From positions 1 through 64,000 of the IMG/VR virus record IMGVR_UViG_3300050120_000012: DNA of 64,000 nt; one strand, given 5' to 3'. The notes below the pieces were generated by a model, which ran no database searches, was not told where the DNA came from, and saw only the letters and a program-made list of their open reading frames with translations. A program made the translations under genes and the position numbers. The DNA is from a virus. This document shows positions 763-64,000 of the stretch, piece by piece. Within the stretch, counting starts at the first letter, position 1. Each line of letters starts with the position of its first letter.

Positions 763-1356
763 TTACTCGGCGAAACCGTCATCCCCGGCTGATCCACCTT
801 CCTGACGACGGGCATCTTGTCGAGCTTGTGCTTCGGCCCCATCGGAGCCGGGAGCGACGGTCGAACCGGCGGTTCCCTTGCCGGGCGTCATGTCCCGGCT
901 GACGGCGCGGTTGACCTTGGGACCGTCGAGAGTTCCGGCCATGCCGGGGACTTCGTTGGCCTTCTGAAGGTCCTGATCCGTGAGGCTGGACGCCTTCAGG
1001 GTGTTCAGCGTCGGACCACCGGACGACTTGCCGGGTTCGACGATCCGAAGAATGTTGCCGCCGGGAACGGTCGCTTCGGGGCTGGACACCTGATTGCGGT
1101 TCCAATCCCAAATGTGGTGACGATTCTCCGGGGTGTTCCCGCCGAGAACTTCTTCGGCGATGTCGCCCACGGATTGACCGCCATCCTTGACGTAGAACTG
1201 GTGGATGGCATGGCCGACTTCGGACTTGTCGGCGGCGTCTTGTTCCTTGGCGTCGAGAGACTTCCCGGCGTCGGAATCGGGAGCCGGGGTGTCGGTGCGG
1301 CCCTTCGTCTTGTCGTCGGCGGCGGGCTTTTCGGCGGTGGTGGCGGCTGCGGCCAT
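763..1356 (-). CDS. LysM-like domain protein with acidic C-terminal tail
   Basis: 197 residues from ATG 1354-1356, preceded by a GAAGGAAA ribosome site; this start is preferred over upstream in-frame ones because of that site. The N-terminal third is a charged, low-complexity Ala/Asp/Lys region. The middle has a LysM-like core: FYVKDGGQSVGDIAEEVLGG, an IWDWNRNQ segment and PGGNILRI near its end, as in peptidoglycan-binding LysM repeats. The C-terminal third is Gly/Asp-rich and ends GDDGFAE, one of the recurring acidic-aromatic tails in this genome. No signal peptide is visible, so a virion or intracellular role is as likely as a wall-bound one. It is the last gene of the left leftward block. 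Confidence 0.72.
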   Translation of the reverse strand: MAAAATTAEKPAADDKTKGRTDTPAPDSDAGKSLDAKEQDAADKSEVGHAIHQFYVKDGGQSVGDIAEEVLGGNTPENRHHIWDWNRNQVSSPEATVPGGNILRIVEPGKSSGGPTLNTLKASSLTDQDLQKANEVPGMAGTLDGPKVNRAVSRDMTPGKGTAGSTVAPGSDGAEAQARQDARRQEGGSAGDDGFAE

Positions 1357-1450
1357 GGTCTGGATTTCCTTCGGTTGATGTAACCGCCCTGATCCTATAG
1401 GCGCAGGCGGTGAACGGGTAGGCGGCGCGATTGTTCCTCTATTCCAGCCG

Positions 1451-1735
1451 CTAATGCAAGTCTTGGCCGGTTCGGAGCATTTCCAGTTGCAGCTTGTAGC
1501 CCTCCGCCTCCAGTTGGGCGGCCTTGAGAAGACCATGAAGAGCTAGGATCGCGTGATAGTTCTCGAATAGAGTTTTCGCGATCAGGATCATGGTATCCCT
1601 CAAACCGGCCAAGCGCATCAATGGAGATTGCGCTTTGACCACGATAGCAAGGATCATGCGGCGGACGATTACATCATCCACCGTATTAAGGTCTTCTTCA
1701 GTCATCTTCAGGAACTCCGTACCATTGATAGACAT
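1451..1735 (-). CDS. Small helical protein, unknown
   Basis: 94 residues from ATG 1733-1735, overlapping the end of the TOPRIM gene by 38 bases. The sequence is predominantly alpha-helical (DVIVRRMILAIVVKAQ, LMRLAGLRDTMILIAKTLFE) with no membrane segment of convincing length and no motif I recognise. The order of genes suggests co-transcription and possibly a partner role for the TopoVI-A-like protein upstream. An in-frame start further upstream (to 1825) would lie almost wholly inside the neighbouring gene and is less likely. Confidence 0.6.
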   Translation of the reverse strand: MSINGTEFLKMTEEDLNTVDDVIVRRMILAIVVKAQSPLMRLAGLRDTMILIAKTLFENYHAILALHGLLKAAQLEAEGYKLQLEMLRTGQDLH

Positions 1736-2684
1736 CTCTCGGTTCAGGCGGTCCCTTCGGAGCAAGGGTGTCCACCAAAGCCTTGATCTCAGACCGTTGC
1801 TGATCTCGCTCTTCGACTCTGGCATCCCAAGCTTCCTGATCTCTGATCGCTAGGACGTTATCACGGATCAGGCTTTCGGTGATAGTCGGGTCCAGAGCGT
1901 CTAGCTCCCACACATCATTGCCGAAGCTTTCCTTGTATTTGCCGGTGCGGCTATCACCCTTCTTCGCTGGCATTGGTGGAGGGTTATGCTCTTCCACCTG
2001 ATCCATGTTGAGCGCCAGACGGTTAAACTCCACAGCAAAACCGCCAAACATCCATAGGCGGGTTTCATTGTCTCGGGTCATGTCCATGCCGGACGGATCA
2101 TGATCTCCCAAGTGGAAGATGATAGGTTCGTATCCATCCTTCTTCCATCCGCGTAACGTCATCCCTAGACGCCATTGCGCAGACTGCGACATATATCCAC
2201 GACAGGCGAAGTAGGGAACCTCCAGTTCGTTGCAGACGCCTTCGATGACGCCGATCAAGGCGTCCTTTTCGATCAGCACAAGCGGACGAACCTTTTGGTT
2301 CTTCCACATATCCACATTCCAACTATCCGCCGCGCCCTTGAGGAACGGAAGGTACTTGTCGGTCTCAGACCACTTCTGATCTGAAGCTGGAATCCACGGA
2401 TCGTCTTGGAAGCCCATCTCGCGCATGTACCGCGTGTTATCCCCGATGGAATACCAATCGACTAGACCGGCGATGCGAGCCTTGGACAGTGTATCGCCAA
2501 GCCGCTTGTATTCTTGGATGGTGTTTCGCTCGACAAGCTTGCGGGCGACGAACTGATAGTAGAGCGAGCGCAGCGTCAGAGCGAAACCCTTGGCCGCGTA
2601 TTCTGCGATGATGGCGTTCGCCTGATCGATTTGCTTTTGAACCGGCTTAGTGAACCGCTTCTTCTCATACATGATGTAGGGCAT
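1698..2684 (-). CDS. Topoisomerase VI-A / Spo11-like TOPRIM protein
   Basis: 328 residues. Residues 37-45 (TLRSLYYQF) resemble the 5Y-CAP winged-helix motif carrying the catalytic tyrosine of TopoVI-A/Spo11, where Arg-x-x-Tyr-Tyr is typical. Residues 134-200 form a TOPRIM domain: a hydrophobic strand ending IEK (Glu139), then CRGYMS at 161-166, then GDHDPSG (193-199) as the DxD metal site. In TopoVI and Spo11 these two domains cleave and re-join DNA with magnesium. The C-terminal 110 residues are charged and helical. No TopoVI-B-like GHKL ATPase partner is visible in the window. The start gives a TAATG junction with the upstream gene. Family assignment is by motif; topoisomerase or nuclease activity is inference. 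Confidence 0.72.
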   Translation of the reverse strand: MPYIMYEKKRFTKPVQKQIDQANAIIAEYAAKGFALTLRSLYYQFVARKLVERNTIQEYKRLGDTLSKARIAGLVDWYSIGDNTRYMREMGFQDDPWIPASDQKWSETDKYLPFLKGAADSWNVDMWKNQKVRPLVLIEKDALIGVIEGVCNELEVPYFACRGYMSQSAQWRLGMTLRGWKKDGYEPIIFHLGDHDPSGMDMTRDNETRLWMFGGFAVEFNRLALNMDQVEEHNPPPMPAKKGDSRTGKYKESFGNDVWELDALDPTITESLIRDNVLAIRDQEAWDARVEERDQQRSEIKALVDTLAPKGPPEPRDVYQWYGVPEDD

Positions 2685-3013
2685 TACTTCGCTTCCCCGG
2701 TAAGGACTAGACCGATCTCGCGGTGCATGTCCTTCGTCATCCGACTGATCTTGTTCTCCAGATCACGGATGGGAATGTGATGACGCTTACGGACTTCTTC
2801 AGCCTTGATGATCCGCGCCTTGGCTTCCTCCAGCGTCTTCGCTCGCCCGGCGAGGTTTTGCTTGGTGAAGGCCACACCGCCGAGATCGCCATCCCGGACG
2901 CCGCCGATCTGATTATCCGACTCAGATGTCACCCGGAGGATTTCATAGGGGCCTTTGGATTGGCGCATGAAGTCTGTCTTCATGATCCCATAAAACAGAG
3001 TGGGCTTTGCCAT
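2684..3013 (-). CDS. Hypothetical protein upstream of TopoVI-A-like gene
   Basis: 109 residues, ATG at 3011-3013; its stop shares a base with the TOPRIM gene start (TAATG), so translation is probably coupled. The N-terminal half has alternating strands (MAKPTLFYGIMKTDF; PYEILRVTSE) and the C-terminal half is a long charged helix (EEAKARIIKAEEVRKRHHIP...IRDLENKISRMTKDM) likely to form a coiled coil. I do not recognise the family. Tight coupling makes it a candidate partner of the TopoVI-A-like protein. Confidence 0.68.
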   Translation of the reverse strand: MAKPTLFYGIMKTDFMRQSKGPYEILRVTSESDNQIGGVRDGDLGGVAFTKQNLAGRAKTLEEAKARIIKAEEVRKRHHIPIRDLENKISRMTKDMHREIGLVLTGEAK

Positions 3014-3019
3014 TGTGAT

Positions 3020-4353: not shown

Positions 4354-4357
4354 GATC

Positions 4358-7050: not shown

Positions 7051-8147
7051 TCGTCTTTCTTCGGTGGTTTCACTTCATAGACCTGTGTAACCATGCCAAC
7101 CTCAGGATCACCCCGACTATGGGATTTGATTTTTATAGCCCATGAGTATCGATGAAGTCGTTCAATGTATAACCATTCCCAATTTTCATTGATGCGACGA
7201 TCTGAAGTCCTGTAGTGCGCGCGAACCATATGCCAGCGGTATTTGACTTTGGTATCGAAGGCCATTTTCAGATGTTTTTCAATGTCCTTCATGCGAACGC
7301 GCTTACCGGGAATGTCGATAGATACTACGCTATTCGTTGAATAGTGTTTGATTCGTCCATCACCACGATATGAACCTTTAGGAGTATAAGGAACATATCG
7401 CACCGGCACATGACCTAGAACGGCTAGAGCGACAATCAGGAAGCGCAGATCGCCAGCTTGTTCCTTCAGAGACCGTACCATGGCGCTATAGGCAAATTGA
7501 TCGGGATTTTCCTTTTGCAGGATGGCATGAAGAGATGCCGGTTCAGGGATTATCCCAAACATTCCCCGAATATCTTTTATCTGTTTAGGATCAGAAGCAC
7601 CCCACGGAAGAGACTGAAGTTCATCGTCCTCCATAAGGACTTCCATCGTGTTCTTTATCTTGTCACCATATATACCACCGACTTTGCTTATGTCCCATTT
7701 ATCCCCATCAGTTCTGAACATAAAACTTGCAGGAAAGGCAACGAACAGATCATTGCGAGGGAGATCACCAAATGTCGTAACAGAATAGAAACCGCCGTCC
7801 ATCTTCTCTTCAATAAGAAACCCAAGCTTGATTGGAGTTCCATCGTCATTGTCAGAATGTGATCCAGTAGCCACAGCTTGGAGACGCTTGGCCGATTCTA
7901 TTCGAGCAGAGAAGTTGAACTCAACCCATGTCACAGGAAAAGGGGGATCACCTAAACGAAGATAGCTCAACAGACGTTTGCTCAACGTACTGGAGCATGA
8001 CACTTGCATAATGTAATCCACAATATCATCGTCCAAGGTGAACGGAATTGCCTTCTTCATTTGCTCGCGATAGAGCTTCATTCCCGCTTTGCCATGAGAC
8101 TCAACTATAGCTCGATTGTAGAGATCAAGATTGCGGGTGTTCTTCAT
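7047..8147 (-). CDS. Conserved phage protein of unknown function; possible +1 tail extension
   Basis: 366 residues from ATG 8145-8147, overlapping the upstream stop as ATGA. The C-terminal third (WHMVRAHYRTS...WLYIERLHRYSWAIKIKSHSRGDPEVGMVTQVYEV, given here in parts) resembles a widespread family of uncharacterised phage proteins with His-x-Val-Arg and His-x-Arg-Gly-Asp motifs; that link is from memory. The frame ends KKDD-stop at 7047. In the +1 frame the sequence continues as KTIDRDDWDIL-stop to 7022, nearly identical to the tail of the neighbouring 8144-8371 protein, so the true or ancestral end may be there. It lies in a slightly AT-richer stretch than its neighbours. Confidence 0.75.
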   Translation of the reverse strand: MKNTRNLDLYNRAIVESHGKAGMKLYREQMKKAIPFTLDDDIVDYIMQVSCSSTLSKRLLSYLRLGDPPFPVTWVEFNFSARIESAKRLQAVATGSHSDNDDGTPIKLGFLIEEKMDGGFYSVTTFGDLPRNDLFVAFPASFMFRTDGDKWDISKVGGIYGDKIKNTMEVLMEDDELQSLPWGASDPKQIKDIRGMFGIIPEPASLHAILQKENPDQFAYSAMVRSLKEQAGDLRFLIVALAVLGHVPVRYVPYTPKGSYRGDGRIKHYSTNSVVSIDIPGKRVRMKDIEKHLKMAFDTKVKYRWHMVRAHYRTSDRRINENWEWLYIERLHRYSWAIKIKSHSRGDPEVGMVTQVYEVKPPKKDD

Positions 8148-8371
8148 AGTATGTCCCAATCATCATCATCTATGGGTTTATCGCCGGGGCGTCCAAGTTC
8201 ACACCATAAAAGGTAGGCGGCTTTGCGATCCCATGACGCATCACTGATCTTGCCGCCGTTGGCGAACACGGCTTCATCACCGACGTTGTTCAGAGACGTA
8301 CCGAAGTGGCGTTCGAAGTAAATCTCGAATGGCGTCACAGCGCCGTCCTTCGGTCGATCCTTTACAGCCAT
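8144..8371 (-). CDS. Small acidic-tailed protein
   Basis: 75 residues. The body (TPFEIYFERHFGTSLNNVGDE) looks soluble and helical; the end is KPIDDDDWDIL, a clear copy of the acidic-aromatic tail found on ten proteins here. It overlaps the next gene as ATGA and the previous one by 10 bases, so it is firmly in the operon. No enzymatic motif is visible. A small adaptor that presents the tail to a partner is one possibility. Confidence 0.7.
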   Translation of the reverse strand: MAVKDRPKDGAVTPFEIYFERHFGTSLNNVGDEAVFANGGKISDASWDRKAAYLLWCELGRPGDKPIDDDDWDIL

Positions 8372-8834: not shown

Positions 8835-8914
8835 GACAGGTACAGCGCCAGTGCGCCACACAGGACTGCGCCAGCGATGCACAGTGCGATTGCGAGATTA
8901 GTACGAGAAGTCAT
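8831..8914 (-). CDS. 27-residue hydrophobic micro-protein
   Basis: ATG 8912-8914 to TGA 8831-8833. The product is Met-Thr-Ser-Arg-Thr-Asn followed by a single hydrophobic helix (LAIALCIAGAVLCGALALYL). It overlaps the upstream stop by 17 bases and the downstream start as ATGA, the same junction style as certain genes around it, which is the main support. The helix contains two cysteines but no good lipobox. Confidence 0.5.
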   Translation of the reverse strand: MTSRTNLAIALCIAGAVLCGALALYLS

Positions 8915-9956
8915 CATCGGATACCTCCTGAAGGGCTGTTTTGGCTTGTTCGATGCCGTGTTCGATCTGTTGACGTTGGACGCTTTGCAGACGGACACGT
9001 TCGGCATTCAAAGCCTCTACAGGATCGACCTTTTCAGTTGGTGGAGAAAGAAGGTCAATGCCGAGTAACTTTGCAGCCATGAAGATGCCTTGACGTTGGT
9101 AGTTTGACAGCAACGTCTCATCGTCAATCATCTGACGGAACGCATCTTCGACGTGGCCTTTGTCGGCCTGCATCTCGCGAAGTTTCTTCTCACGCTCGAC
9201 GCGCCGGGCTTCGTCTTCGACCACACGGCGAGCCTTGGCCGTCGTATGCAGTTCCATGTCCGCGCGGTCTTTGTTGATGATGTCCTGACGCAGCGGCACA
9301 AGTCCATCTGCGATCATGGATGGAATTTGCATGAGCGCGTATTCCTTCGACGCAAACCGCTTGGCGTCGGACTTCGTTTCGCGCTTCTCGCCGCTGATCT
9401 CATAGCGCCGAATGTAGTTCAGCGTGTCACCCATCCTCGGATCGGGCATGTCGCCCTTCTCATAGTCGCCGTAGCGAGCGGCGGACTCAAAGCCCCTGAT
9501 CTCCCACGACTTGCCCCATCCGCTTTCGATGCAGACGAAGGCGACAATCCGATTGGGATCATCGGCGTCGGCCAAGACGCCCGTATCGATGACGGGATAG
9601 ACGGACTTCCATGTGTATTTGGAAATGCCGAATGGCTTGGAATCGTTGAGCGCGAACCGTTCGCCGAGGACATAGCCGATGGGTTCAGCCTTCAGCTTCT
9701 TCGCCAGATACTTCGATTGGCAAGCGCCACACACGTCATGCGCCCATTCGAACTTTGTGAACTGCGAATAGGAGCCGGTGTCGCAATAGACGCGCTCAAT
9801 CCGGTCGCGGTTATCGGTTTGGGAGTAGGCGACGGCGTATTTGTCGCCACAGAGAGATTTGACAGACCACCGCGCTTCACCTTCGCGTCCGGGTGACGCC
9901 GGTTCGATAGCTCCGATCAGATGCTTTTGGTGAGAAGACCGTTGTGAACGCGCCAT
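8898..9956 (-). CDS. Hypothetical protein with CxxC and acidic-aromatic tail
   Basis: 352 residues from ATG 9954-9956. The N-terminal 200 residues are a mixed globular domain with one CxxC (DVCGACQSKY). The C-terminal 150 residues form long charged helices (KARRVVEDEARRVEREKKLREM; PVEALNAERVRLQSVQRQQI) likely to be coiled coil, ending EVSDDDFSY, one of the shared tails. It starts a transcript from the promoter at 9993-10021. I do not recognise the family. Confidence 0.72.
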   Translation of the reverse strand: MARSQRSSHQKHLIGAIEPASPGREGEARWSVKSLCGDKYAVAYSQTDNRDRIERVYCDTGSYSQFTKFEWAHDVCGACQSKYLAKKLKAEPIGYVLGERFALNDSKPFGISKYTWKSVYPVIDTGVLADADDPNRIVAFVCIESGWGKSWEIRGFESAARYGDYEKGDMPDPRMGDTLNYIRRYEISGEKRETKSDAKRFASKEYALMQIPSMIADGLVPLRQDIINKDRADMELHTTAKARRVVEDEARRVEREKKLREMQADKGHVEDAFRQMIDDETLLSNYQRQGIFMAAKLLGIDLLSPPTEKVDPVEALNAERVRLQSVQRQQIEHGIEQAKTALQEVSDDDFSY

Positions 9957-13037: not shown

Positions 13038-13242
13038 CGTTCTTCAAGTCCTTTAGGTATTTGATGACATCGGACGCTTCACCGATGCCGAGATTGTCGA
13101 ACCACGCTTGGACGGTGGTGTATGCCATGTCGAAGTGTGGAAGGTCTTCATGGTCACGGTTTGTCGCGAACGTCGATATACCACAGTCGATCATAAGACC
13201 GCGAATGTAGGACAGTTGCTTGTCCGTTGCCATGATCGCCAT
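13030..13242 (-). CDS. Small helical protein
   Basis: 70 residues. The TAATG junction favours ATG 13240-13242, with 13233 as an alternative. The opening ATDKQLSYIRGLMIDCG matches the short helical 'TxKQxxYI' repeat often seen in small phage proteins and at the ends of some nucleic-acid-binding proteins. The remainder is helical (YTTVQAWFDNLGIGEASDVI). Function unknown. Confidence 0.63.
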   Translation of the reverse strand: MAIMATDKQLSYIRGLMIDCGISTFATNRDHEDLPHFDMAYTTVQAWFDNLGIGEASDVIKYLKDLKNDG

Positions 13243-13967
13243 TAGAAACTGAACCCATCATCGTCGGTTGCTGGAGCATCTTCTTCGAAGCCGAAGTCTG
13301 GCTCTAGCTCTTCGACATCATCTGGACCGAAGTCAGCATCGTCTTCAGCTTCTCCGCCGCCTCGCGCTTCCCGGTGTGTCTTGAGGTAGGCTGACAGATC
13401 ACCGACAGAAAGCTCGCGAACGTCGGCGGCGAAGTCTCCAGCGGCGTCGGACGCCACAGTGAAATCAACGGATCGTTCCGGCCAATCCACAAGTTGGGGC
13501 GGGAGCTTGCCTGTGTATGGGGATGCAGCCCACTTGCGCCCGTCCGCATTCGCCCGAATACGGTCTCGGACATAGCTTTTGACGGATTCATCAAGGGGGA
13601 ACTCCAACTGAAAGACGCTCATGAAGTTGATGACTGTATGCTCGGATGGAGCTTCGCGCAACTGGTGAGATCGTGCGGACGCAGCTTCGATCCATTCGAT
13701 GGGCCAGATGTCCATGACCTGCCATAGCGGAAAGAAGTTGAAGGACTGCGCAGCAAGTTTGTCCACAACGTACATGCCAAGCTCAGTGATCGTGACGGAC
13801 CCGTCATCGTCCACGCCTTCGATGATCCCGGCCCATATCAGTTTGTAGGCATGGTTCAGATAGATCGGCGCAACTTGGCCGACATCACCGATGGAGTTCT
13901 CCAGCCATGAACGCATAAACATGATCGACCGGCGATCCATGTACGCGGGATCATAAAGCATTGGCAT
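13242..13967 (-). CDS. Winged-helix-like protein with long acidic tail
   Basis: 241 residues from ATG 13965-13967 with GGAGAG upstream. Residues about 30-80 (NHAYKLIWAGIIEGVDDDGS, VTITELGMYVVDKL) look like a winged helix. The C-terminal 45 residues are an acidic linker with repeated short motifs DADFGP, EPDFGF and final TDDDGFSF. The 18258-18899 protein has the same plan, so the two are probably distant paralogues. A DNA-binding regulator with a docking tail is my inference. Confidence 0.68.
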   Translation of the reverse strand: MPMLYDPAYMDRRSIMFMRSWLENSIGDVGQVAPIYLNHAYKLIWAGIIEGVDDDGSVTITELGMYVVDKLAAQSFNFFPLWQVMDIWPIEWIEAASARSHQLREAPSEHTVINFMSVFQLEFPLDESVKSYVRDRIRANADGRKWAASPYTGKLPPQLVDWPERSVDFTVASDAAGDFAADVRELSVGDLSAYLKTHREARGGGEAEDDADFGPDDVEELEPDFGFEEDAPATDDDGFSF

Positions 13968-13987
13968 CCAATCTCTCCATTGTATTT

Positions 13988-14296
13988 TCACGACACACCG
14001 TTGTCGTATATCCACGTTGTGTTATCGCCGTCGATCCTGCCTAGCGCGAACGCAAACCAATCTTCGACGAAATCGTCACCGACTTCATATCGCTCGACGA
14101 CGCAGACCATATAGTTCGTCTTTTGCTCAGTCGAATCTTCGATCAGCATAGCAGTACCGATCTGTGTCACGACTGAGTTCAACTCATCTATGGTCATCTC
14201 TTCTGGAAATGACACATAGAGTTCCTGTAGCAGTTCACCGTAATTCTCAAGCGACGGCGGGCTATCGAACATTGTGCTGATCGATAGCCTATTCAT
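13988..14296 (-). CDS. Hypothetical protein
   Basis: 102 residues from ATG 14294-14296, overlapping the upstream gene by 8 bases. The sequence LENYGELLQELYVSFPEEMT, then DELNSVVTQIGTAMLIED, suggests an alpha-beta protein ending with strands (YMVCVVERYEVGDDFVEDWF). No membrane helix and no motif recognised. Confidence 0.62.
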   Translation of the reverse strand: MNRLSISTMFDSPPSLENYGELLQELYVSFPEEMTIDELNSVVTQIGTAMLIEDSTEQKTNYMVCVVERYEVGDDFVEDWFAFALGRIDGDNTTWIYDNGVS

Positions 14297-17999: not shown

Positions 18000-18261
18000 C
18001 GGTGATCGGCTCCACTCGCGGCTCATCGGTTTGGGGCCAGCACGTTGTATGGGGAATCTCCGAAATGTCCATCTTGGTTTTCCAGTGTGAACCACAGACT
18101 CGGCACATGAGGTAGGACATTGCAGACCATCGTGGCTGATAACCATTGAACGCCGATCTGGATTCATGGTCGATCAGTACCACCCATTGCCTCGGGCGCT
18201 GATTTGATCCAGCCGGTACGATCTGTGGCCGGTTTCGTTCCGTGCAGCGACAGGCGCTCAT
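17992..18261 (-). CDS. Small zinc-knuckle-like protein
   Basis: 89 residues from ATG 18259-18261 at an ATGA junction. Cysteines at the N-terminus (SACRCTERN) and in the middle (YLMCRVCGSHW) plus HTTCW could form a zinc site. Basic overall. Function unknown. Confidence 0.62.
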   Translation of the reverse strand: MSACRCTERNRPQIVPAGSNQRPRQWVVLIDHESRSAFNGYQPRWSAMSYLMCRVCGSHWKTKMDISEIPHTTCWPQTDEPRVEPITDV

Positions 18262-18899
18262 ATGATGTCCCAATCCAAAGAAGGATCGTCGAAGTCCGGT
18301 TCGGGTTCTTCAGTCTTACGGATCGGATCGCCGAACCCGTCTGTCTCGCCGGTCCACATAGACTCGACGGTCTTACGGAAGAGTTCGATGCGGTCTTTGT
18401 CAGGCTGGCGTAGTTCCGCTCGCGCTTGGATTGATCCGGGGGGTGGTAAAGAGGGGGTGCGCTCTAACCACTCCACGACAGTTTCAGTGTCGAGCGCGAG
18501 ATCGACGATGCCGGTACGCGGACGTATGGTGAGGAAGTCTAAATCCTTCAGTGGCTTCATCCACCATCGCTCAGTCTTAGCGGGCATGGTCAAAAGACCG
18601 ACGATGATCTCTTCGCCTAAACCGTCCAAGAAACGATCTGGACTGAACTCGCCGGTCGATTTGATGAGTGAATGACGCAAGGCTGCACCGACGACAGTCA
18701 GGCTATACATGCCATCTAGCTCGCGCCGCATGAGGCCATTCTTGACGCATAATTGTAGGGCTCGGGAGCGATTGACTGTGACAGCCGACTCCGATTTGCG
18801 CCCGCCTGACTTGGGCCGGTACATGGGGGATGAACCCATCTCATCCACAAGCTCAGCAAAGCCGGGATAGATTCTATGGGGCAGAGATCGGGGTTCCAT
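18258..18899 (-). CDS. First gene of the left block: winged-helix-like protein with acidic tail
   Basis: 213 residues from ATG 18897-18899. Residues about 40-75 (NRSRALQLCVKNGLMRRELD, GMYSLTVVGAALRHSL) follow a winged-helix plan; the C-terminus is acidic with EPEPDFDD and ends PSLDWDII, one of the shared tails. It is the promoter-proximal gene next to a palindromic operator, the usual place for an early regulator. It resembles the 13242-13967 protein in layout. Regulator role is inferred from position and fold. Confidence 0.68.
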   Translation of the reverse strand: MEPRSLPHRIYPGFAELVDEMGSSPMYRPKSGGRKSESAVTVNRSRALQLCVKNGLMRRELDGMYSLTVVGAALRHSLIKSTGEFSPDRFLDGLGEEIIVGLLTMPAKTERWWMKPLKDLDFLTIRPRTGIVDLALDTETVVEWLERTPSLPPPGSIQARAELRQPDKDRIELFRKTVESMWTGETDGFGDPIRKTEEPEPDFDDPSLDWDII

Positions 18900-22036: not shown

Positions 22037-22822
22037 ATGGCGCTTGGACCCGCACAAAAAGCCGAACTGATCGACGCGATTTACGTCAAGCTAGGCGTTC
22101 CTGCGGCTGCGGAACACTGTCATCTGAAGCTCCGCGACGTTCTGACGGAGATGGATGACGATGAGGACTTCGGAGCCGCCGTAGAGCAAGCTATGGCTCA
22201 CCTGACACCCTTGGCCGAACAAGAGCTATTCCGCCGGGCAGTCCATGGGACGGAGAATTACGTCGTCAATCAGGGCCGCGTGGTCTTCCTCACCAATTCA
22301 GACGGCATATCGAAGCCTCTGATAGAGAAGAAGTATAGCGATGGCCTCCTGACGAAGTTCCTAGAGGCACGCAAGAAAGACGTTTTTGGAGCCAAAGTCG
22401 AAGTTGCTCACAAGCATAGCGGCTTTATTGCCGTCCCGGTCATGTCCATGGAGGAAATCCAGAACATGCTCGACTCTCCGGGAGATGAAGTGACCTTTAT
22501 CGACGCCAGCTATCAAGAGATCGTCGGTCAACGCCCCTTGGCCGTTGCAGATGCCGATGTTGAGGCCGATTGGCCGCCTCAGAGCGCGGATAGCGAGCCT
22601 CGGGCCTCACAAGCTGTTATCCAAGAGCGTGTCCGCGCTCTGACGACGCCCCGGCAAGAGCCCGAACTGATCGACTTCGACCCTCGGGACGACGCCATGG
22701 AGTTCGTCATGGATCGGCTGGAGGATGAGCCGGACTTTGAGTTCGTCACGGCTGAGATCGAAGACACCGCCGAAGAGCTTAAGACGTTCGACGATGACGA
22801 TGAACCGGACTTCGGCGTCTAA
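22037..22822 (+). CDS. terS: Terminase small subunit
   Basis: 261 residues from ATG 22037-22039; no clear ribosome site precedes it (TTAACC only). The N-terminus (AELIDAIYVKLGVPAAAEHC) fits a helix-turn-helix DNA-recognition part, and GTENYVVNQGRVVF, then LLTKFLEARKKDVFG, are typical of alphaproteobacterial phage small terminases. It recognises viral DNA for packaging. The last 70 residues are acidic with repeated EPDFEF and EPDFGV, one of the shared tails. The stop shares a base with the large-subunit start region (TAATG). Assignment rests on motif and position. Confidence 0.8.
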   Translation: MALGPAQKAELIDAIYVKLGVPAAAEHCHLKLRDVLTEMDDDEDFGAAVEQAMAHLTPLAEQELFRRAVHGTENYVVNQGRVVFLTNSDGISKPLIEKKYSDGLLTKFLEARKKDVFGAKVEVAHKHSGFIAVPVMSMEEIQNMLDSPGDEVTFIDASYQEIVGQRPLAVADADVEADWPPQSADSEPRASQAVIQERVRALTTPRQEPELIDFDPRDDAMEFVMDRLEDEPDFEFVTAEIEDTAEELKTFDDDDEPDFGV

Positions 22823-53881: not shown

Positions 53882-55390
53882 CTAACCGTCGCCAATCTCT
53901 CGTAAAAGCTCTTGAAGACCTGTTCTGCTAATGCGTTCGGAAACGTCTTCTTTGTTGCCTAACAGGTTTAGAATGTAGTCGTCATTCGCATTGTTAGCTA
54001 TGATGTCGATCAGGTCAACGGCCTTCTTTCCTAAAGCTGTGGCCCGGTCGCTCGCCTGATTGCGCTGGATCAGCGAAGGCGTATGCGAACTCCAGATCAG
54101 CGTCCCGGCAACGGACATATCAACGCCAGCGCCGCCGGACTGCGGTTGGCCGATTATACCGGCGACTTCTGGATCATCCCTCAGATCGCGGAGGTTTTGG
54201 AATTTGATCTTCTGAGAAACGCCGCCGTACATCTGGAGCATACGACGGCCAAAGCCTTCTTCGACCAAGAGTTCTTCCAACATCTCAGTCATCTTCACGA
54301 TGTCATACTTGAACCGACACCATATGATGAACTTGCTATCGGAGTTCATCGCCTCATGGATCGTCAGGAGGAATCGTGGGTTATCCTTGGGCTTGACTAG
54401 CTCATGCAGAACCTTGTTCTCATCCACTAGGAAGCCGGAACTGATCTGTTGAAACTTCAGCATGAGAGTACCGCCGTCCAAGGCTCGCCCTCCCATCACA
54501 GGTTCCTTCTTCAGCGCACGCCAGACCTTGATCTGATTATCGGTCATCTCGAAACGACGCTGCGTATCGATGGGCTTCAGAAGTCCAGCGTCCTCGCGCG
54601 TCACTACAGAGGCGTACTTCGCAATCGCCGTCTTGAGTTCTTCTTCGTTCTTCGGTCCAAGGAACTTCTGATATTTCCGATTGTTCTTTGTGGTCTTCGT
54701 CTCCCATATGCCGAAGTGATTCTTGAACGTCTCAGACGTGTCAAACCCTAGCGCGCCTTCCTCCAGTATTTCGAACTGTGAGTAAGCCTGCATCGGCGAC
54801 TCATCAATCGCCGTCCCTGATAGGATGCGTCTGAAGTTCGACGCATTACGAATGGCCTTTGTTGCGCCGGTTCTAGCAGAACCCGGTGCGCCGTATTGAT
54901 GGCTTTCATCCGCGACTAAGAAGACCTTCCCCTTGTGATACTTGAGAAAAGTCTTCAGAAAGGCGCGACACACCTTAGACGCCAACGACTCACTGTTGAC
55001 GGACAGGATCATGAGCTTATCGCGACCGCGACACACCCGCTCAAACTGCGCCATGTACGCCTTTTGCTTGGTGCGAGCGCGGTTGGCATTCCAAATCATC
55101 CCTTCCCATGGGACTTGATCTGGCATGTGCCGGGGGATTTCCTCCAGTATCCAGTTTTGGTGTGCGATGTTCGGCGCGAGGATGACGACGGCGGTGATCC
55201 GTCCGACGTGATAGTTGAAGGCGAAGGTATCGATGACCGCCTTGGACTTACCCGAACGCATTGACCACAGTAGAGCGCGAGCCGCGACGGACCTGTATTT
55301 GAAGAACTCCGTCCGCTGTGTGCTACGCGGCGGCGTCTTGAAGGTGAGTGGCCCAATAGGTTTGCGGGGCTTCGCGGCTGGCCTTTGCAC
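53882..55390 (-). CDS. SNF2-type superfamily 2 helicase
   Basis: 502 residues from GTG 55388-55390 (TAGTG junction with the polymerase stop). Motif I SMRSGKSK at 43-50, motif II DESH at 161-164, motif III SGTA at 191-194; the C-terminal helicase half has FIIWCRFKYDIVKM, GGAGVDMSVAGTLIWSS and QRNQASDRATALGKK. A double-strand DNA translocase or helicase of the kind encoded beside phage polymerases. Family call secure. Confidence 0.9.
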   Translation of the reverse strand: MQRPAAKPRKPIGPLTFKTPPRSTQRTEFFKYRSVAARALLWSMRSGKSKAVIDTFAFNYHVGRITAVVILAPNIAHQNWILEEIPRHMPDQVPWEGMIWNANRARTKQKAYMAQFERVCRGRDKLMILSVNSESLASKVCRAFLKTFLKYHKGKVFLVADESHQYGAPGSARTGATKAIRNASNFRRILSGTAIDESPMQAYSQFEILEEGALGFDTSETFKNHFGIWETKTTKNNRKYQKFLGPKNEEELKTAIAKYASVVTREDAGLLKPIDTQRRFEMTDNQIKVWRALKKEPVMGGRALDGGTLMLKFQQISSGFLVDENKVLHELVKPKDNPRFLLTIHEAMNSDSKFIIWCRFKYDIVKMTEMLEELLVEEGFGRRMLQMYGGVSQKIKFQNLRDLRDDPEVAGIIGQPQSGGAGVDMSVAGTLIWSSHTPSLIQRNQASDRATALGKKAVDLIDIIANNANDDYILNLLGNKEDVSERISRTGLQELLREIGDG

Positions 55391-57567
55391 TACTTACGAT
55401 ACCGGAGCATGGCTGCGCCTTCGGCGGCGATGGGGAAGCCTCTGCCCCAATTCGGAAGGTGACACATGAGATCGCATAGAAGCTGCGCAGCGGCTTTGCT
55501 TCCACCTAATGCTTCGACGCGGACGATCTCCAGCGCCGTGACTAGCTCATCGTGGACGGTAAGTAGAAGCTCGAATTGACCATGACGCTTTACGACCCGC
55601 ATAGCGTGCGCCATAAGATCGCGACACAAAGCCTGTACGATGTTCTCGACTAGCTTTCCCCCGTAGGTGTAGCTCCGATCCCACTTCTTCGTGAAGCTGT
55701 TGATCTCCATGTACGAGATCGCCAGCTTCCTCGACTTCGTGTATGTGACCTTGCCTGTCACTTCGTCCACGTCTTCCCATACGCGCTCCGTCCATTCCAG
55801 CTTGGGATAGGGATAGGGGATCAGCCTGCCCGAAGGCAACTGGCAAAACAGGAAGCGCCCGGCGCGCTTATAGGCAATGTGCGAATTGACGCGGACTACC
55901 GATCCGGGGTTCTGCATCGCCTCGATAGCTGCGCCCTCACAGGCGTACCAAAAGGCTTTGACCGGCGCATGACGCTCACGATAGCCAAGGATGCCTTTCT
56001 TGGCCGTGTCTAGGTCAATGATGATCTTCGATTGAGCGCAGTAGTCAATGAACTTCGGAGGGCCTAGCTGATACCCTGCGCCCAAGATGATTTGCTTGCC
56101 GAACTGGCGTTCATCGGCCCAACGGATAGACGGGGCTTTGTTCTTCTTATCTTCATCGAACTCGCGTTTGATCGTCGCGTAGTCGAGATTGTTTACGAAG
56201 GCCGCCATCTCCAGATAGGAGTCGATGCCCTGATTGAATAGCTCTACGCCGTCGTGGTGATCGCAGACCCAAAACAGACCGCGTGCTTCCACGGATGAAT
56301 AGTCGGCGGTGACAAGCATCTTATCTTTGCCGGGCAGGATCGCACCACGCAACGCGCCAGAGAAGACGCTGTAGAGATCGTCATACTCTTCTTCTAGTTC
56401 CTCTGCGTCCAAGTTCATAAGAGCAAAGACGGTATCGTCCATGTTCTTAATCTTGCCACGCGGAAGGTTCTGCGGCTGGATGCCTACTCCCGCCCACCGG
56501 GACGTGCGAGATGCACCGGCATACATGAGAACGTCTCTACACCGCCCGTCGTCAGACGCACGGTATCGAATGGTCTTATATTTTGCTGTTGATGCGCGAC
56601 CAGCCATACGCACACGACTAACAACGCCGTGTATATGGTCTGGAAGGAAATCATCTTCCAAGAGCGCGTCGAGAGTAGCAGCCTGCGTATTGGGAAGTTC
56701 AAAGCCATTTTCTAGCATCCATTCTTTGAGTTGATTTCGCGCTGTGACTTTCGGGACTTTCCCGTCAGTTAGACGCTGTATCTCTTCTTCATACTTCCCC
56801 CGAAGGTATGCCAAGGTCTCCATTGCCTTATCGACAAGTTCAAGGTCGATAGGGATGCCGCGTTCGTTGATCTCCTGATCGATCAGCCAAATCTCTTGCT
56901 CGACCGGCGATAGATCAGGGAGGGATTGACTGAACCGCTCTTCAGCGAGAACGTCCTTCCGGCAATAGACGATCAGACGCTTGATAGATGTCGCGTCTTG
57001 AACCCATCGCTCGGGTTGCTTCTTCGTCGCCTTCTTCGGACGACACATGGTCATCATGAGCTTGTGACCTTCCTTGTCCTTCTGGACAGGGAGGTTCATG
57101 ATCTCACAGCACTTCTCCAGACCACGCGGGAGACTGTACGATGCAGCCTTGGCCGCCGAACATCTCCATTGCACGTCTGGAATGTCGGGCCAGAACTCAG
57201 GGACTAGCTTGCTGCGCCAGACGGCGCGTTCGAACATGGCATTGTGGGCTTCAACGACTCCGCCATCTTCGATCCACTTGCATAGATCGGCTGGCGGCGG
57301 CATCCGTGGGACGCCACAGATGTCCGCGATCCAATCGGGAACCCACACCGCTGTCTTGCCCTCGGGCCAGAAGGGCAGGCGGTAGCAGAGGCACATGACC
57401 TGTGTGGAGTCGTCCGACGCATAGCGCCAAGCGCCGGACTTCTTTAGATCGATCCGCGACCTTGTTTCGAAGTCGATAGTGGCGCGTTGAAGACGTGTTT
57501 TTGCTGGAGGCTTCGGCTTGCGAACCTCTACTCCGGGACCGCCAATGGTTCCGAGATCAAAAGCCAT
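55390..57567 (-). CDS. Family A DNA polymerase with 3'-5' exonuclease domain
   Basis: 725 residues from ATG 57565-57567. The N-terminal exonuclease starts with DFE (32-34) in TIDFETRSRIDLKKSGAW and continues to a KDVLAEE near 204-210. The polymerase has motif A ADYSSVEARG (421-430), motif B RQFGKQIILGAGYQ (487-500) and motif C VHDEL (671-675). The exonuclease lacks the 5'-3' domain of cellular Pol I, as normal in phages. This is the replicative enzyme; TAATG joins it to the GapR-like gene. Confidence 0.95.
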   Translation of the reverse strand: MAFDLGTIGGPGVEVRKPKPPAKTRLQRATIDFETRSRIDLKKSGAWRYASDDSTQVMCLCYRLPFWPEGKTAVWVPDWIADICGVPRMPPPADLCKWIEDGGVVEAHNAMFERAVWRSKLVPEFWPDIPDVQWRCSAAKAASYSLPRGLEKCCEIMNLPVQKDKEGHKLMMTMCRPKKATKKQPERWVQDATSIKRLIVYCRKDVLAEERFSQSLPDLSPVEQEIWLIDQEINERGIPIDLELVDKAMETLAYLRGKYEEEIQRLTDGKVPKVTARNQLKEWMLENGFELPNTQAATLDALLEDDFLPDHIHGVVSRVRMAGRASTAKYKTIRYRASDDGRCRDVLMYAGASRTSRWAGVGIQPQNLPRGKIKNMDDTVFALMNLDAEELEEEYDDLYSVFSGALRGAILPGKDKMLVTADYSSVEARGLFWVCDHHDGVELFNQGIDSYLEMAAFVNNLDYATIKREFDEDKKNKAPSIRWADERQFGKQIILGAGYQLGPPKFIDYCAQSKIIIDLDTAKKGILGYRERHAPVKAFWYACEGAAIEAMQNPGSVVRVNSHIAYKRAGRFLFCQLPSGRLIPYPYPKLEWTERVWEDVDEVTGKVTYTKSRKLAISYMEINSFTKKWDRSYTYGGKLVENIVQALCRDLMAHAMRVVKRHGQFELLLTVHDELVTALEIVRVEALGGSKAAAQLLCDLMCHLPNWGRGFPIAAEGAAMLRYRK

Positions 57568-57920
57568 TACTTATCAGACGGAGCGATCATCTCAAGCGCG
57601 GCTTCATAGAGTTCGATCAGCGCCTCTTCTTCCTGACGCTTGGCCTTGTCTTGCTTCCGGCGCGCGATGACCTTGCGCATGATCTTCACGTCAAAGCCTT
57701 CACCCTTGGCTTCAAGGAAGACTTCCTTCTTATCGGTCTTCACCGCATCTTCGTCTTCCTGAAGACGCTCGATACGCTCGACGAAGGACTTCATCCGCGT
57801 CTGCGCCGTGGTGGACATCATATCCAGCGCCACGCCTACTTCATCGCCGTTGAATGACTCTAGGCCATTGCCGAAGTCAATGTCGCCGTCTTCGGCTTCC
57901 AAATCGAAATCACCGGCCAT
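57567..57920 (-). CDS. GapR-like (DUF2312) chromatin protein
   Basis: 117 residues from ATG 57918-57920, with GTGAGG acting as ribosome site. From about residue 35 on the sequence (QTRMKSFVERIERLQEDEDA; VFLEAKGEGFDVKIMRKVIA; RRKQDKAKRQEEEALIELYE) is the DUF2312 signature; its best-known member, Caulobacter GapR, forms a coiled-coil clamp on overtwisted DNA and stimulates topoisomerases. The N-terminal 30 residues are an added acidic/aromatic segment (AGDFDLEAEDGDIDFGNG) close to the shared tail motif. It is directly upstream of the polymerase gene. Confidence 0.88.
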   Translation of the reverse strand: MAGDFDLEAEDGDIDFGNGLESFNGDEVGVALDMMSTTAQTRMKSFVERIERLQEDEDAVKTDKKEVFLEAKGEGFDVKIMRKVIARRKQDKAKRQEEEALIELYEAALEMIAPSDK

Positions 57921-58550: not shown

Positions 58551-59192
58551 CTAGAACTGAACGTCGTCATCTCCGAAGGCGTCACCGCCCGCGTCGTCGC
58601 CGAAGCTGATCTCGTCTTCGCCCAAGTCGGTGAAGTCGTTCTCCGCGTCCGGCCCTTGATTGCCGAACTTCTCGCCGTCACCGATGAAGATGAGGTTGTG
58701 CAGATTGACCGCAACGCCCTTGGACTTATTGTCGAAGCTCCAGAACGACACGGAAGCTCGGGCGTAGCAGCCCGCGTAGAACTTGCTCCAGTCGATCTTG
58801 GTCTTCGCGCCGCCGATCATCTGGATCATGCCGGGCGGGGTTTTGTTCCCCATCCGAATGAACGTGACGCCTGCGCCGTAGCCGTCTTTGTCCGGCTTCT
58901 CCATGCCGTCGCGGAACGGCATCTTGTACGCCGGAAGAATCTTCCGGTCGGCCCCGAACGCTTTGTCGCCGAACTTCTCCCGGAGGGAGGCCACGGCGGC
59001 TTGACGCATCTTCTTCCACCGCTCCGCATCTTGCGGTGTGAAAGACGTAGCCGTGAAGAGGCCGGTCACGCCATACTTGGGATCGCTGGCGGAACCTTCC
59101 ATCTTGGACGGCTTATCGAGGTTGGGATAGGACGTTCGGAAGATCGGAGTGGTGATCGTGACCTGAACGGCTTTCTCGGCTGCATCAGCCAT
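58551..59192 (-). CDS. ssb: Single-stranded DNA-binding protein, DUF2815 (Enc34-like)
   Basis: 213 residues from ATG 59190-59192 with AAAGGAC upstream; the longer frame is discarded. The order FRTSYPNLDKPSKME, KFGDKAFGADRKILPAYKMP, then KFYAGCYARASVSFWSFDNK and GVAVNLHNLIFIGDGEKFG fits DUF2815, an OB-fold SSB family in phages. The C-terminal 30 residues are acidic (DFTDLGEDEISFGDDAGGDA) and end GDDDVQF, like the SSB docking tip. It coats single strands at the fork. Next to DUF2800 and helicase genes, as in other phages. Confidence 0.87.
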   Translation of the reverse strand: MADAAEKAVQVTITTPIFRTSYPNLDKPSKMEGSASDPKYGVTGLFTATSFTPQDAERWKKMRQAAVASLREKFGDKAFGADRKILPAYKMPFRDGMEKPDKDGYGAGVTFIRMGNKTPPGMIQMIGGAKTKIDWSKFYAGCYARASVSFWSFDNKSKGVAVNLHNLIFIGDGEKFGNQGPDAENDFTDLGEDEISFGDDAGGDAFGDDDVQF

Positions 59193-59642: not shown

Positions 59643-61226
59643 TTAGAGAATATCCCATTCGTCGGCGTCGGGTGCGGCGAGTAGCAGCGGTTCCCCGTCG
59701 TCCACGACACTGAAGTCCGCGTCGATAATGCCAAGCTCTTCGTCGCCCAAGTCACTGAACGGATTGATCTCGATTGCAGGACGCGCGTCGGTGATCGGAA
59801 CTAGGGTGAGCTTACCTTCCGGGTGGAAGGACAGTTGGGCCACAAGGTCTTTACCGATCTCGGGTATCTTCTCCAGTTGAGCCGGTGTCTTGCACTTCGG
59901 CTCTTTGAAGATGTCCTTATCTGGAATACCCATGTTGCGCAGACGCTTGATCGTGTCCGCTTCATTCTTCAGCTTTCGATTAGACCGCTTGCGGACGATC
60001 TTCTGGCCTTCGATGGCATAGCCGTTTTCAGCCTCATGCTGAGCGTAGGCTTGAACGTCGCGGATCATGGCGTCCAGCACAGGTGCGAGACGGAGGATGG
60101 TGAGCATCCGCTGGCGATCTCCGATGACGCTGGCGACCATCTTCTTCGATAGGTTCTCACCGGCTTCTGATAGCACTTGCTTGACACCTTTCTGAATGAC
60201 GAACTCTTCGTCGCCTAAGTCTGTGAAGTCCTGCAAAGCAAGCGACTGAGCTTGGTCGAATAAGGCGGGACAAGGCTTCGCCTTACCATTGCAGAAGAAG
60301 CATTGGACTTCGCCGGGGACTAGCGGCGCATCCGGGTCTTCGGTCGCTATTGCAGCTTCAATGAGAGTCTTCGTGAAATCCATGACTTCATCGATAGTGT
60401 AGTCCCACGTTCTAATAGGACCGTCTCTGTGAGCCGCGCGAGGTTGAACGATAACGGTACGGACGATCTTCGGTAAGTCCCCTCGATCTCTACATATTTC
60501 GAGGATAGCCCCAAGAGCATAATACAGAAGTTGAGGATTGAATTTAGCTTCGACGACTTTACCTCTTCCGTGCTTGTAATCAAGAACGATAAGGATTTCG
60601 CCTCTGACGAAGAAGCAATAGTCATTTGTTCCGAACATGCCGGGATAGAGGCGACTGAGATCAAATCCCTTTTCAAGGAAAATATGAACGTCGTCTTTGT
60701 CATAAGTAGCATACAGTTCCTCCGTAATGCGGGCGATCTCTAGTGTGTATTTCGCCACGGCATCGGCCATGTCTTCATCGATCTCAAAGACGATCACGTC
60801 GTCTTCTTCCTCATCCGGGTAGTCGTCGGTGAGGTTGCCTTTGATGTCGATAAACTGTCCGATGAACCAATGCGGATGAACGTCGGACGACAGTGCAAGC
60901 TCCGCTAGATGGTGAGCACACGTTCCCTCTTGAGCAAACCGGCTGGATCGGTTCGGCATCCCCTTGGACATGCGGACGGAGCCGGGACACTTCATCCATC
61001 GATCTGAGGACGACGCACCTAATACGGCGTGGACCTTGCCATCCTCTGACGTGTGGCCTTCCTTCTTCCCATGGGCTTGAGGCCCTAGCACGGATAGCAG
61101 CGTCGGAACCCGATTTTCCAGCCCCATCTCCGCAACGATGTCGTCGAAGTTTATATGGGGATTGGCGATCAGAGTTGTGACCTTGGCGATCACCTTCTCT
61201 TTGTTCTTCGCTGCGAAGTCGATCAT
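59643..61226 (-). CDS. DUF2800 (Cas4/RecB-like) nuclease
   Basis: 527 residues, ATGA junction with the helicase gene. HAVLGASSSDRWMKCPGSVR near 65-85 is the DUF2800 opening signature; LIVLDYKHGRGKVVEAKFNP near 210-230 has the Asp-x-Lys of the PD-(D/E)XK core, and QCFFCNGKAKPCPALFDQ near 305 the Fe-S/zinc-type cysteines. Family members work with DUF2815 SSBs in phage DNA processing. Repeats of 'FTDLGDEEF' and 'FSDLGDEEL' precede the end PDADEWDIL, one of the shared tails. Confidence 0.85.
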   Translation of the reverse strand: MIDFAAKNKEKVIAKVTTLIANPHINFDDIVAEMGLENRVPTLLSVLGPQAHGKKEGHTSEDGKVHAVLGASSSDRWMKCPGSVRMSKGMPNRSSRFAQEGTCAHHLAELALSSDVHPHWFIGQFIDIKGNLTDDYPDEEEDDVIVFEIDEDMADAVAKYTLEIARITEELYATYDKDDVHIFLEKGFDLSRLYPGMFGTNDYCFFVRGEILIVLDYKHGRGKVVEAKFNPQLLYYALGAILEICRDRGDLPKIVRTVIVQPRAAHRDGPIRTWDYTIDEVMDFTKTLIEAAIATEDPDAPLVPGEVQCFFCNGKAKPCPALFDQAQSLALQDFTDLGDEEFVIQKGVKQVLSEAGENLSKKMVASVIGDRQRMLTILRLAPVLDAMIRDVQAYAQHEAENGYAIEGQKIVRKRSNRKLKNEADTIKRLRNMGIPDKDIFKEPKCKTPAQLEKIPEIGKDLVAQLSFHPEGKLTLVPITDARPAIEINPFSDLGDEELGIIDADFSVVDDGEPLLLAAPDADEWDIL

Positions 61227-62485: not shown

Positions 62486-62527
62486 GTGATGCCGATCATA
62501 TTAGCGTTTTATCATGTTAGGGTAGCA

Positions 62528-62556: not shown

Positions 62557-62578
62557 GACACGGCCTAGACCGGGCTCT
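62544..62578. other. CTAG-containing hairpin overlapping the promoter
   Basis: AGAGCCCGGTC (62544-62554) pairs perfectly over 11 bp with GACCGGGCTCT (62568-62578), and the loop side carries GGCCTAGACC. It overlaps the -35 box of the promoter at 62528-62556 and follows the upstream gene's stop by about 8 bases, so it may terminate and/or regulate. Confidence 0.6.
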
Positions 62579-62585
62579 GGATAGA

Positions 62586-63503: not shown

Positions 63504-63516
63504 GATTGATCCATGT

Positions 63517-63545
63517 GAAAAGGGCCGCCCCGGATGGGACGGCCC
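63517..63545 (-). terminator. Terminator after the right-edge gene
   Basis: Minus-strand stem GGGCCGTCCC/GGGCGGCCC-type (63536-63545 with 63522-63530) followed by TTTTC. Near copy of the rightward terminator at 33577-33603. Confidence 0.8.
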
Positions 63546-63573
63546 TCCACTATCGCTGATTCGACGCCGATGT

Positions 63574-64000
63574 CTAGGCGCTGAAGTCGGCGTCACCTTC
63601 CTTGGCGGCGGCAGGCGCGGCGGCCTTGTCGCCAGTGGCGGCTTCGCCTTCCTTGGCCGGGGCGTCGTTCTCGGTCGGGATCATGATGACCAGCGCCTTG
63701 TCCTCGGGATAGACCTTGAACTTGGCCTTGGCCGACACGTCGAAGGGCAGGGACGCCGACATGACGTGCGCCGCCGTCTTCTTGCCCTTGCTGACGTAGC
63801 GCAGGGTGAGCGGGCCGTCGTCCGCCGGTTGGATCATGAGCTTGCCGCCCCACACCGCGCCGGTCCCCTTGACCGCCTTGACCTTGATGCCGTCGCCGAG
63901 ATCGGTGAGGCCCATGGTTTCCAGCACGTCGGAACCGATGGTGATGACCTTCTGGCCCTTCTTCAGGCTGGAGACGCGGACGCCGGTGGTCTTGCGGCCC
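63574..64000 (-). CDS. Partial gene with acidic-aromatic tail (5' end outside window)
   Basis: The frame is open to the right edge without a start, so the gene begins beyond base 64000. About 141 residues are visible. The readable part (KVITIGSDVLETMGLTDLGD; KLMIQPADDGPLTLRYVSKG; KFKVYPEDKALVIMIPTEND) is strand-rich, followed by an Ala/Glu/Lys linker and the end EGDADFSA, one of the shared tails. Family unknown; position at the head of the replication block suggests DNA metabolism. Confidence 0.66.
   Translation of the reverse strand, partial: GRKTTGVRVSSLKKGQKVITIGSDVLETMGLTDLGDGIKVKAVKGTGAVWGGKLMIQPADDGPLTLRYVSKGKKTAAHVMSASLPFDVSAKAKFKVYPEDKALVIMIPTENDAPAKEGEAATGDKAAAPAAAKEGDADFSA

Follow-up and report, generated by a model that had tools for sequence, protein, structure and literature searches.

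Why do so many unrelated proteins of one phage end in nearly the same few amino acids? The question is raised by a stretch of 64,000 nucleotides (the window) of IMG/VR virus record IMGVR_UViG_3300050120_000012, which itself runs to 71.8 kb. A preliminary description, made from the sequence alone, listed ten proteins with an acidic C-terminal tail closed by an aromatic or hydrophobic tip, four internal copies of the motif and a GapR-like protein with a similar stretch at its N-terminus. It distinguished two sub-types, W-D-I-[LI] and D-x-F-[SNG]-x, and inferred that a common hub binds the motif across replication, packaging and regulatory proteins. We examined the tips in this phage, in its relatives and in phages sharing its replication module.

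Shared C-terminal tips and their carriers

The observation proved to be real: all ten C-termini read exactly as described, at the described ends, as do the internal copies EPDFEF, EPDFGF, DADFGP and EPDFDD. The set is, however, larger than ten, as two clear carriers lie just outside the window, namely a primase-helicase (L002:4757-7270, the locus containing them being denoted L002; DEWDII) and a DNA methyltransferase (L002:8121-8759; DEDWDIL). Together with three proteins within the window, these make five non-homologous proteins ending in W-D-I-[LI]. The first of the three is a 75-aa protein of unknown function (8144..8371, minus strand), which ends in DDDDWDIL and is about 52% identical to an 82-aa protein ending in EDDPFAIL in G001, a related IMG/VR record. 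The second is a protein of unknown function (18258..18899, minus strand) without Pfam or PHROG match, the C-terminus of which, EPDFDDPSLDWDII, combines a DxF motif with a following WDII tip. The third is a DUF2800 (Cas4/RecB-like nuclease) protein (59643..61226, minus strand; PF10926, E=2.5e-71) ending in DADEWDIL, which ends in DAFDIL in Brevundimonas phage Poludnitsa and G001, and which also contains the motifs DFTDLGDEEF and PFSDLGDEEL, resembling the tail of the ssDNA-binding protein (SSB).

The SSB (58551..59192, minus strand) is of the T7 gp2.5/Enc34 type (PF10991, E=8.9e-30; phrog_112), and its predicted gp2.5-like OB fold is supported by an AlphaFold model matching 4klk, 4jg2, 5odl and 1je5. 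Our gene calls start it at 59192, not at 59387. It has a proximal motif, NDFTDLGEDEISF, and ends in GDDDVQF (ADEFQL in Poludnitsa). Its acidic tail, GDDAGGDAFGDDDVQF, has a hydrophobic last residue and is predicted to be disordered, with a pLDDT of about 55 over the last 13 residues.

The small terminase subunit (22037..22822, plus strand; phrog_4044) has an internal EPDFEF and ends in DDDDEPDFGV, while its orthologues end in DDGFDIL (Poludnitsa), EDGFDIL (G001) and DDLAGLT (G002, a relative of another tip lineage); the annotated small terminase of RDJL3 ends in SDIDPLA. A head-region protein downstream of the major capsid protein (29328..29840, plus strand) ends in EDDADFNF, and the protein at the same place in Poludnitsa and G001 ends in DPFADL. 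A 160-aa protein of unknown function (63574..64000, minus strand, starting at 64056 beyond the window) ends in EGDADFSA, and its orthologues in SGDLSA and GGDLSV. A 352-aa protein of unknown function (8898..9956, minus strand) ends in SDDDFSY, with a partial homologue in G001 ending in DEWGQIIG. A further protein of unknown function (13242..14015, minus strand), for which no homologue was found, has the acidic tail DADFGP...EPDFGF...TDDDGFSF. The protein ending in GDDGFAE (763..1356, minus strand) has no orthologue in the relatives and the weakest match to either tip, and we would not count it. The GapR-like protein (57567..57920, minus strand) contains the GapR DNA-binding domain (PF10073, E=1.8e-27) and has acidic DF motifs at its N-terminus (MAGDFDLEAEDGDIDF) but no C-terminal tail, whereas relatives carry the lineage tip at its C-terminus (FDIL, DGLV, EDLLS, DDFLD).

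The tips are more frequent than expected by chance. Five of 88 proteins of the record end in [FW]D[IL][ILV], against 0 of 3,787 background phage proteins and 0.02 predicted by permuting the last 10 residues of each protein. A motif-free statistic, counting pairs of non-homologous proteins with similar last five residues, gave 7 pairs against 0.40 expected (maximum 3 in 200 shuffles), although only four of the five WDIL proteins were in that gene set. A looser class, with at least 4 acidic residues in the last 10 and an aromatic residue in the last 5, comprised 11 of 88 proteins against 127 of 3,787 (p=2.4e-4), but was defined after seeing the data. W-D-I-[LI] is strictly C-terminal, while the DxF motif is also internal.

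These results bear on the possibility that there is no common hub, and that acidic tails are general disordered, DNA-mimicking or solubility tails with tips made similar by shared composition or short duplications. Acidic tails are indeed common (386 of 3,787 background proteins), and four of the five WDI[IL] genes end in xTA-TGA, overlapping an ATG. However, none of the background proteins shares the tip, the upstream codons differ, and the gene at 59643 uses other synonymous codons. Recent DNA duplication is therefore an unlikely source of the tips, although a very short portable cassette cannot be excluded. With the conservation and lineage differences described below, we consider this explanation very unlikely.

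Conservation and covariation of tips within lineages

Single-protein scans of viral contigs with DUF2800 and the primase found no relative, so that profile scans were needed; the primase profile found no relative in bacterial genomes. A scan of the viral contigs for [DE][DE]WDI[LF] followed by a stop gave 20 stretches, mostly chance, of which one, G001, was a true relative. Poludnitsa and G001 have 7 of 111 and 6 of 109 proteins ending in [FW]D[IL][ILV], where about 0.02 is expected per genome. Whether related phages keep the tip residues, and whether the tips exceed the frequency expected of acidic C-termini in general, had been named beforehand as tests, and both came out in favour of the motif. 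The primase tip DEWDI[IL] is invariant at 48% identity while the linker changes by indels, and nearly all tips are kept between Poludnitsa and G001 at about 85% identity. Both relatives also carry the tip on further, non-orthologous proteins. Tails come and go as units, as the GapR orthologue has FDIL in Poludnitsa and none here.

Phages with the same replication module (gp2.5-type SSB, DUF2800 nuclease, Prim-Pol primase, family A polymerase and SNF2 helicase) each have their own shared tip. In G002, GapR, primase and three more proteins end in [DE]GL[VI], against 1 of 4,212 background proteins. In RDJL3, primase, SSB, small terminase and three more end in DP[LT]A, and in locus L070, SSB, DUF2800 and SNF2 end in DLDI. 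Over 106 dereplicated loci, tips matched within genomes beyond shuffles for SSB-DUF2800 (z 4.7), primase-DUF2800 (3.6), SSB-SNF2 (3.2), SSB-primase (3.1, over 78 loci) and GapR-SSB (3.0), while the polymerase control gave values between -1.6 and 0.7. The covariation was mostly absent at positions -10 to -6 and -15 to -11. Some of it weakened at 40% dereplication without this phage and Poludnitsa (primase-DUF2800 p=0.09; SSB-primase p=0.01), and SSB tips resembled random proteins of the same locus slightly more than those of other loci (z 1.2-1.5), indicating a mild composition effect. Other proteins of a locus matched its SSB, primase or DUF2800 tip in 23 cases against 3.2 expected (maximum 5). 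Tip similarity between genomes hardly followed core identity (|r| up to 0.16), so inheritance does not explain the agreement.

A putative docking code and its reader

From these analyses, we conclude that the interpretation in the preliminary description is supported in part, and its core only indirectly: a short C-terminal motif is used by many unrelated proteins and is probably read by one partner. An acidic tail with an aromatic or Phe end is not the general rule, as the exact tip is lineage-specific and need not be aromatic. Of the two sub-types, W-D-I-[LI] is firmly established and D-x-F-[SNG]-x is weaker, although the orthologous small terminase subunits carry DFGV in one phage and FDIL in others, so the two types may be interchangeable.

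In our preferred reading, to which we assign a probability of about two in three, the tips are docking peptides: short, disordered, acidic tails whose last 4-5 residues (W-D-I-L/I here) plug into one partner, probably encoded by the phage and located at its replication fork. Any protein acquiring the tail would be brought to replicating phage DNA, including primase-helicase, SSB, nuclease, DNA methylase, GapR-like protein, small terminase subunit and several unknown proteins. As the partner's pocket drifts, all tails of a lineage would change together, giving each lineage its own code. Our analysis demonstrates the shared tips, their C-terminal position, their conservation and their within-genome covariation in independent lineages, whereas it is an inference that the tips bind anything, that there is one hub and that this hub is phage-encoded. 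In this phage the SSB tip (DVQF) matches the primase tip (WDII) only loosely and differs from WDIL, so two pockets or hubs are possible. It is about as likely as not that such tails form a genome-wide address tag for the replication and packaging site, portable between unrelated proteins, read by a phage-encoded receptor and rewritten in every lineage as tag and receptor coevolve.

The family A DNA polymerase (55390..57567, minus strand; PF00476) is the first hub candidate, by analogy with T7, but this identity is tentative and rather less likely than not. It carries no tip (it ends in RYRK), nor does the polymerase in the other genomes examined. Its profile matches T7 gp5 only weakly, over the palm region (hhalign 37%), so the basic patches of gp5 cannot be assumed. 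A search for the protein that the tips follow, using core-protein identity, did not single out the polymerase or any other core protein (all |r| at most 0.16). A small protein between SSB and DUF2800 (59263-59613) was considered because it occurs in the [FW]DIL and DGL[VI] lineages, but it was not found in the RDJL3 and L070 loci.

The hub might instead be the SSB itself, with carriers mimicking its tail and docking in its OB groove, which would concentrate them on ssDNA. In Enc34 SSB crystals the acidic C-terminus inserts in the groove of a neighbouring molecule (PMC5686142), the proximal motif shared by SSB and DUF2800 covaries (z 5.7), and the AlphaFold model gives this motif in the SSB a pLDDT of about 84 and then 72. 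However, the same model leaves the extreme tip disordered, and primase and terminase lack the proximal motif. This explanation is unlikely for the tips and may hold for the proximal motif only; this second, family-wide motif (xDFxxL, just after the SSB OB fold and in the DUF2800 tail) probably docks in the SSB groove.

It also appears unlikely that the hub is a conserved host protein, such as the sliding clamp DnaN, the partners of host SSB or another replisome factor, with the phage tails mimicking host docking peptides. Host hubs of this kind exist (beta-clamp motif QL[SD]LF, SSB-Ct DDDIPF), some gp2.5-type phage SSBs in our set end in host-like DDIPF (loci L125, L143, L178, L220 and L237), and tips such as DDLF or SDLFS resemble the end of the clamp motif. 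Nevertheless, phages of alphaproteobacteria use quite different tips (FDIL against DPLA), although such host pockets are conserved, and two unrelated Caulobacter phages, read over 50 kb each, have no WDIL-type ends.

If our reading holds, the T7 principle of helicase and SSB docking on the polymerase through similar acidic tails is used much more widely. A phage could plug new proteins into its replisome by adding about five residues, and the code could be read directly from genomes, giving a sequence-only way to find which unknown phage proteins work at the fork. It would link packaging, through the small terminase subunit, to replication, and would offer a natural set of orthogonal peptide-receptor pairs. 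The reading predicts that one protein per phage binds all tips of that phage, and only those.

Comparison with known docking systems

The phage has the Enc34/DUF2815 SSB and DUF2800 replication module, in which the SSB tail is acidic; the papers we read describe this SSB tail only, and did not report sharing of tips among module proteins. About 1,400 records hold a DUF2800 match. Sliding-clamp binding peptides (bacterial QL[SD]LF, the PCNA PIP box and T4 gp45 binders) are likewise short, often terminal, and found on many replication, repair and packaging proteins that dock on one hub. The WDIL/FDIL tips, however, lack the Q of the bacterial consensus Q-x-[DS]-[LM]-[FL] and are lineage-specific, and no clamp gene appeared among the subset of proteins searched. 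The bacterial SSB C-terminal peptide (DDDIPF) is also acidic, disordered and C-terminal with hydrophobic last residues, providing one code for many partners, but there one protein carries the tip and many read it, whereas here many proteins carry it, and no tail of this phage ends in I-P-F. The closest precedent is T7, in which an SSB of the same fold family and a primase-helicase end in an acidic tail with a common tip (gp2.5 DEDGDF, gp4 SNDTDF) that docks on gp5/thioredoxin, gp4 tails bind gp5 (PMC12593628) at basic patches, and the polymerase is of family A and has no tail. The polymerase of the present phage is only distantly related to gp5, and docking on it is proposed by analogy alone. 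In T7 two proteins share the tip, while here about a dozen do, including nuclease, methyltransferase, small terminase subunit, GapR and unknown proteins, with lineage-specific, often non-Phe tips.

C-terminal tips of the carriers and their frequency

The virus record is 71,812 bases long. All ten C-termini that the preliminary description had listed as acidic tails closed by an aromatic or hydrophobic tip are present exactly as written in the window (bases 1-64000), and its observation therefore holds. The remaining 7.8 kb adds two more carriers, namely a Prim-Pol primase-helicase ending DDEPDFGTEDEWDII and a DNA methyltransferase (phrog_799) ending ALTDEDWDIL. Among the carriers inside the window, a gp2.5/Enc34-type SSB (58551), a DUF2800 protein (59643) and a small terminase subunit (22037) were assigned to families, while the others have no known family. 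The GapR-like protein (57567, PF10073) has acidic DF motifs at its N-terminus instead.

Five of 88 proteins end in [FW]D[IL][ILV], whereas permutation of the last ten residues of each protein predicts 0.02, and none of 3,787 background phage proteins ends in this way. Every D/E-prefixed [FW]D[IL][IL] match in this phage and its two relatives is located at the extreme C-terminus, except one inside a helicase, so the free carboxyl end seems to matter. A motif-free test, in which pairs of non-homologous proteins with similar last five residues were counted against shuffling of the last twelve, gave 7 pairs against 0.40, with a maximum of 3 in 200 shuffles. The wider class of acidic tails with an aromatic residue is also enriched (11/88 against 127/3,787, p=2.4e-4), although this class was defined after seeing the data. 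Four of the five WDI[IL] genes, those ending at 8144 and 18258 of the window and at L002:7270 and L002:8759 (L002 being the locus with the primase-helicase and methyltransferase), end in xTA-TGA, i.e. an ATGA stop/start overlap, which fixes the last codon to an A-ending one.

Tips in related phages and covariation within genomes

The nearest named relatives are Brevundimonas phages of the Delta/Poludnitsa group. Poludnitsa has seven C-terminal [FW]DIL-type ends, on primase, DUF2800, small terminase, GapR-like and unknown proteins, and the IMG/VR record G001 (87.6 kb) has six and keeps nearly all tips. In the primase, the linker before the tip is full of substitutions and indels while DEWDI[IL] is unchanged at 48% overall identity. 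Tails are gained or lost as units: the GapR-like protein of Poludnitsa ends in an added acidic stretch plus FDIL, and the orthologue in the present phage does not. The small terminase subunit ends DFGV here, FDIL in Poludnitsa and G001, AGLT in the related genome G002 and DPLA in Roseobacter phage RDJL3. The two sub-types distinguished in the preliminary description, W-D-I-[LI] and D-x-F-[SNG]-x, may thus be interchangeable, although most DxF carriers have no orthologue that would allow this comparison. Two tandem full CtrA boxes (TTAA-N7-TTAA) were found at window positions 19394-19425, in the divergent intergenic region, where 0.08 are expected. Brevundimonas phage Delta has such sites in its gap region (PMC9437464), so an alphaproteobacterial, Caulobacterales-like host is likely.

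Phages with the same replication module have other shared tips. G002 (78.9 kb, with many orthologues in common with this phage) has five [DE]GL[VI] ends, including primase and GapR, plus near matches on SNF2 (RGLI), SSB (GGLF) and small terminase (AGLT), while 1 of 4,212 other proteins ends in [DE]G[LF][VIF]. RDJL3 has DP[LT]A on primase, SSB, small terminase and three more proteins, and locus L070 has DLDI on SSB, DUF2800 and SNF2. The motif-free test is far above its null in each of G001, Poludnitsa, RDJL3 and the loci L045, L049 and L070, but not in most other loci tried. GapR-like genes lie in many phage replication modules, and some, in L214, L231 and L237, end in LDPFS or LDPFA. A small conserved protein between SSB and DUF2800 (window 59263-59613), which belongs to no known family and is 51% identical in Poludnitsa, is also found in G002 and L045.

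For 106 loci dereplicated at 60% SSB identity, tips of different proteins of one genome are more alike than those of different genomes, with z 4.7 for SSB-DUF2800, 3.6 for PRIM-DUF2800, 3.2 for SSB-SNF2 and 3.1 for SSB-PRIM (PRIM, primase), and z 3.0 for GapR-SSB over 14 loci. The polymerase, which ends RYRK or close to it, shows none of this covariation. When this phage and Poludnitsa were left out and the loci were dereplicated at 40%, SSB-DUF2800 remained at z 3.8 and SSB-PRIM at z 2.4, but PRIM-DUF2800 fell to p=0.09. Positions -10 to -6 and -15 to -11 are mostly not significant. Other proteins of a locus match its SSB, primase or DUF2800 tip 23 times against 3.2 expected. The shuffles treat loci as independent, and there is a mild composition effect (z 1.2-1.5 for random proteins). 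Genes were called with an in-house script, except in Poludnitsa, where the deposited annotation was used. Tip similarity between genomes is almost unrelated to core identity (|r| at most 0.16), so agreement inside a genome is not simple inheritance.

A proximal motif shared by SSB and DUF2800

Just after the SSB OB fold and in the DUF2800 tail lies a similar xDFxxL segment, here NDFTDLGEDEISF in the SSB against DFTDLGDEEF and NPFSDLGDEEL in DUF2800. This segment covaries between the two proteins (z 5.7), against z 1.5 for the primase control. The AlphaFold model of the SSB (pLDDT 89.9), which matches Enc34 SSB and T7 gp2.5, gives this segment a pLDDT of about 84 then 72, while the extreme tip is near 55. 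In Enc34 crystals, the C-terminus inserts in the groove of a neighbouring molecule (PMC5686142). We infer that the proximal motif docks in the SSB groove and that the extreme tip is for another partner.

Inferred docking and comparison with known systems

Most likely, the carriers are brought to one partner through the tip, as T7 gp4 tails are brought to gp5 (PMC12593628). T7 gp2.5 ends DEDGDF and gp4 ends SNDTDF. The common hub proposed in the preliminary description is partly supported, and only indirectly: the shared tips, their conservation and their covariation were observed directly, whereas binding, the existence of a single hub and its identity are inferred. The partner is more likely phage-encoded than host-encoded, because tips differ between phages of related hosts and because two unrelated Caulobacter phages lack them over the 50 kb examined of each. 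The gp2.5-type SSBs of loci L125, L143, L178, L220 and L237, however, end in the bacterial SSB signature (DDIPF, EDIPF, DEIPF), as if they had taken over the host SSB docking peptide. The family A polymerase is the leading candidate for the hub, albeit a tentative one, because it is the one core replication protein that never carries a tip, but its likeness to gp5 is weak and the coevolution test did not point to it.

Our searches of the open-access literature, which do not cover most subscription journals, showed no report of a lineage-specific tip shared by a dozen proteins, including packaging and nucleoid-type proteins. It is this sharing that appears to be new, while tail docking in T7, the bacterial SSB peptide and clamp-binding peptides are already known.
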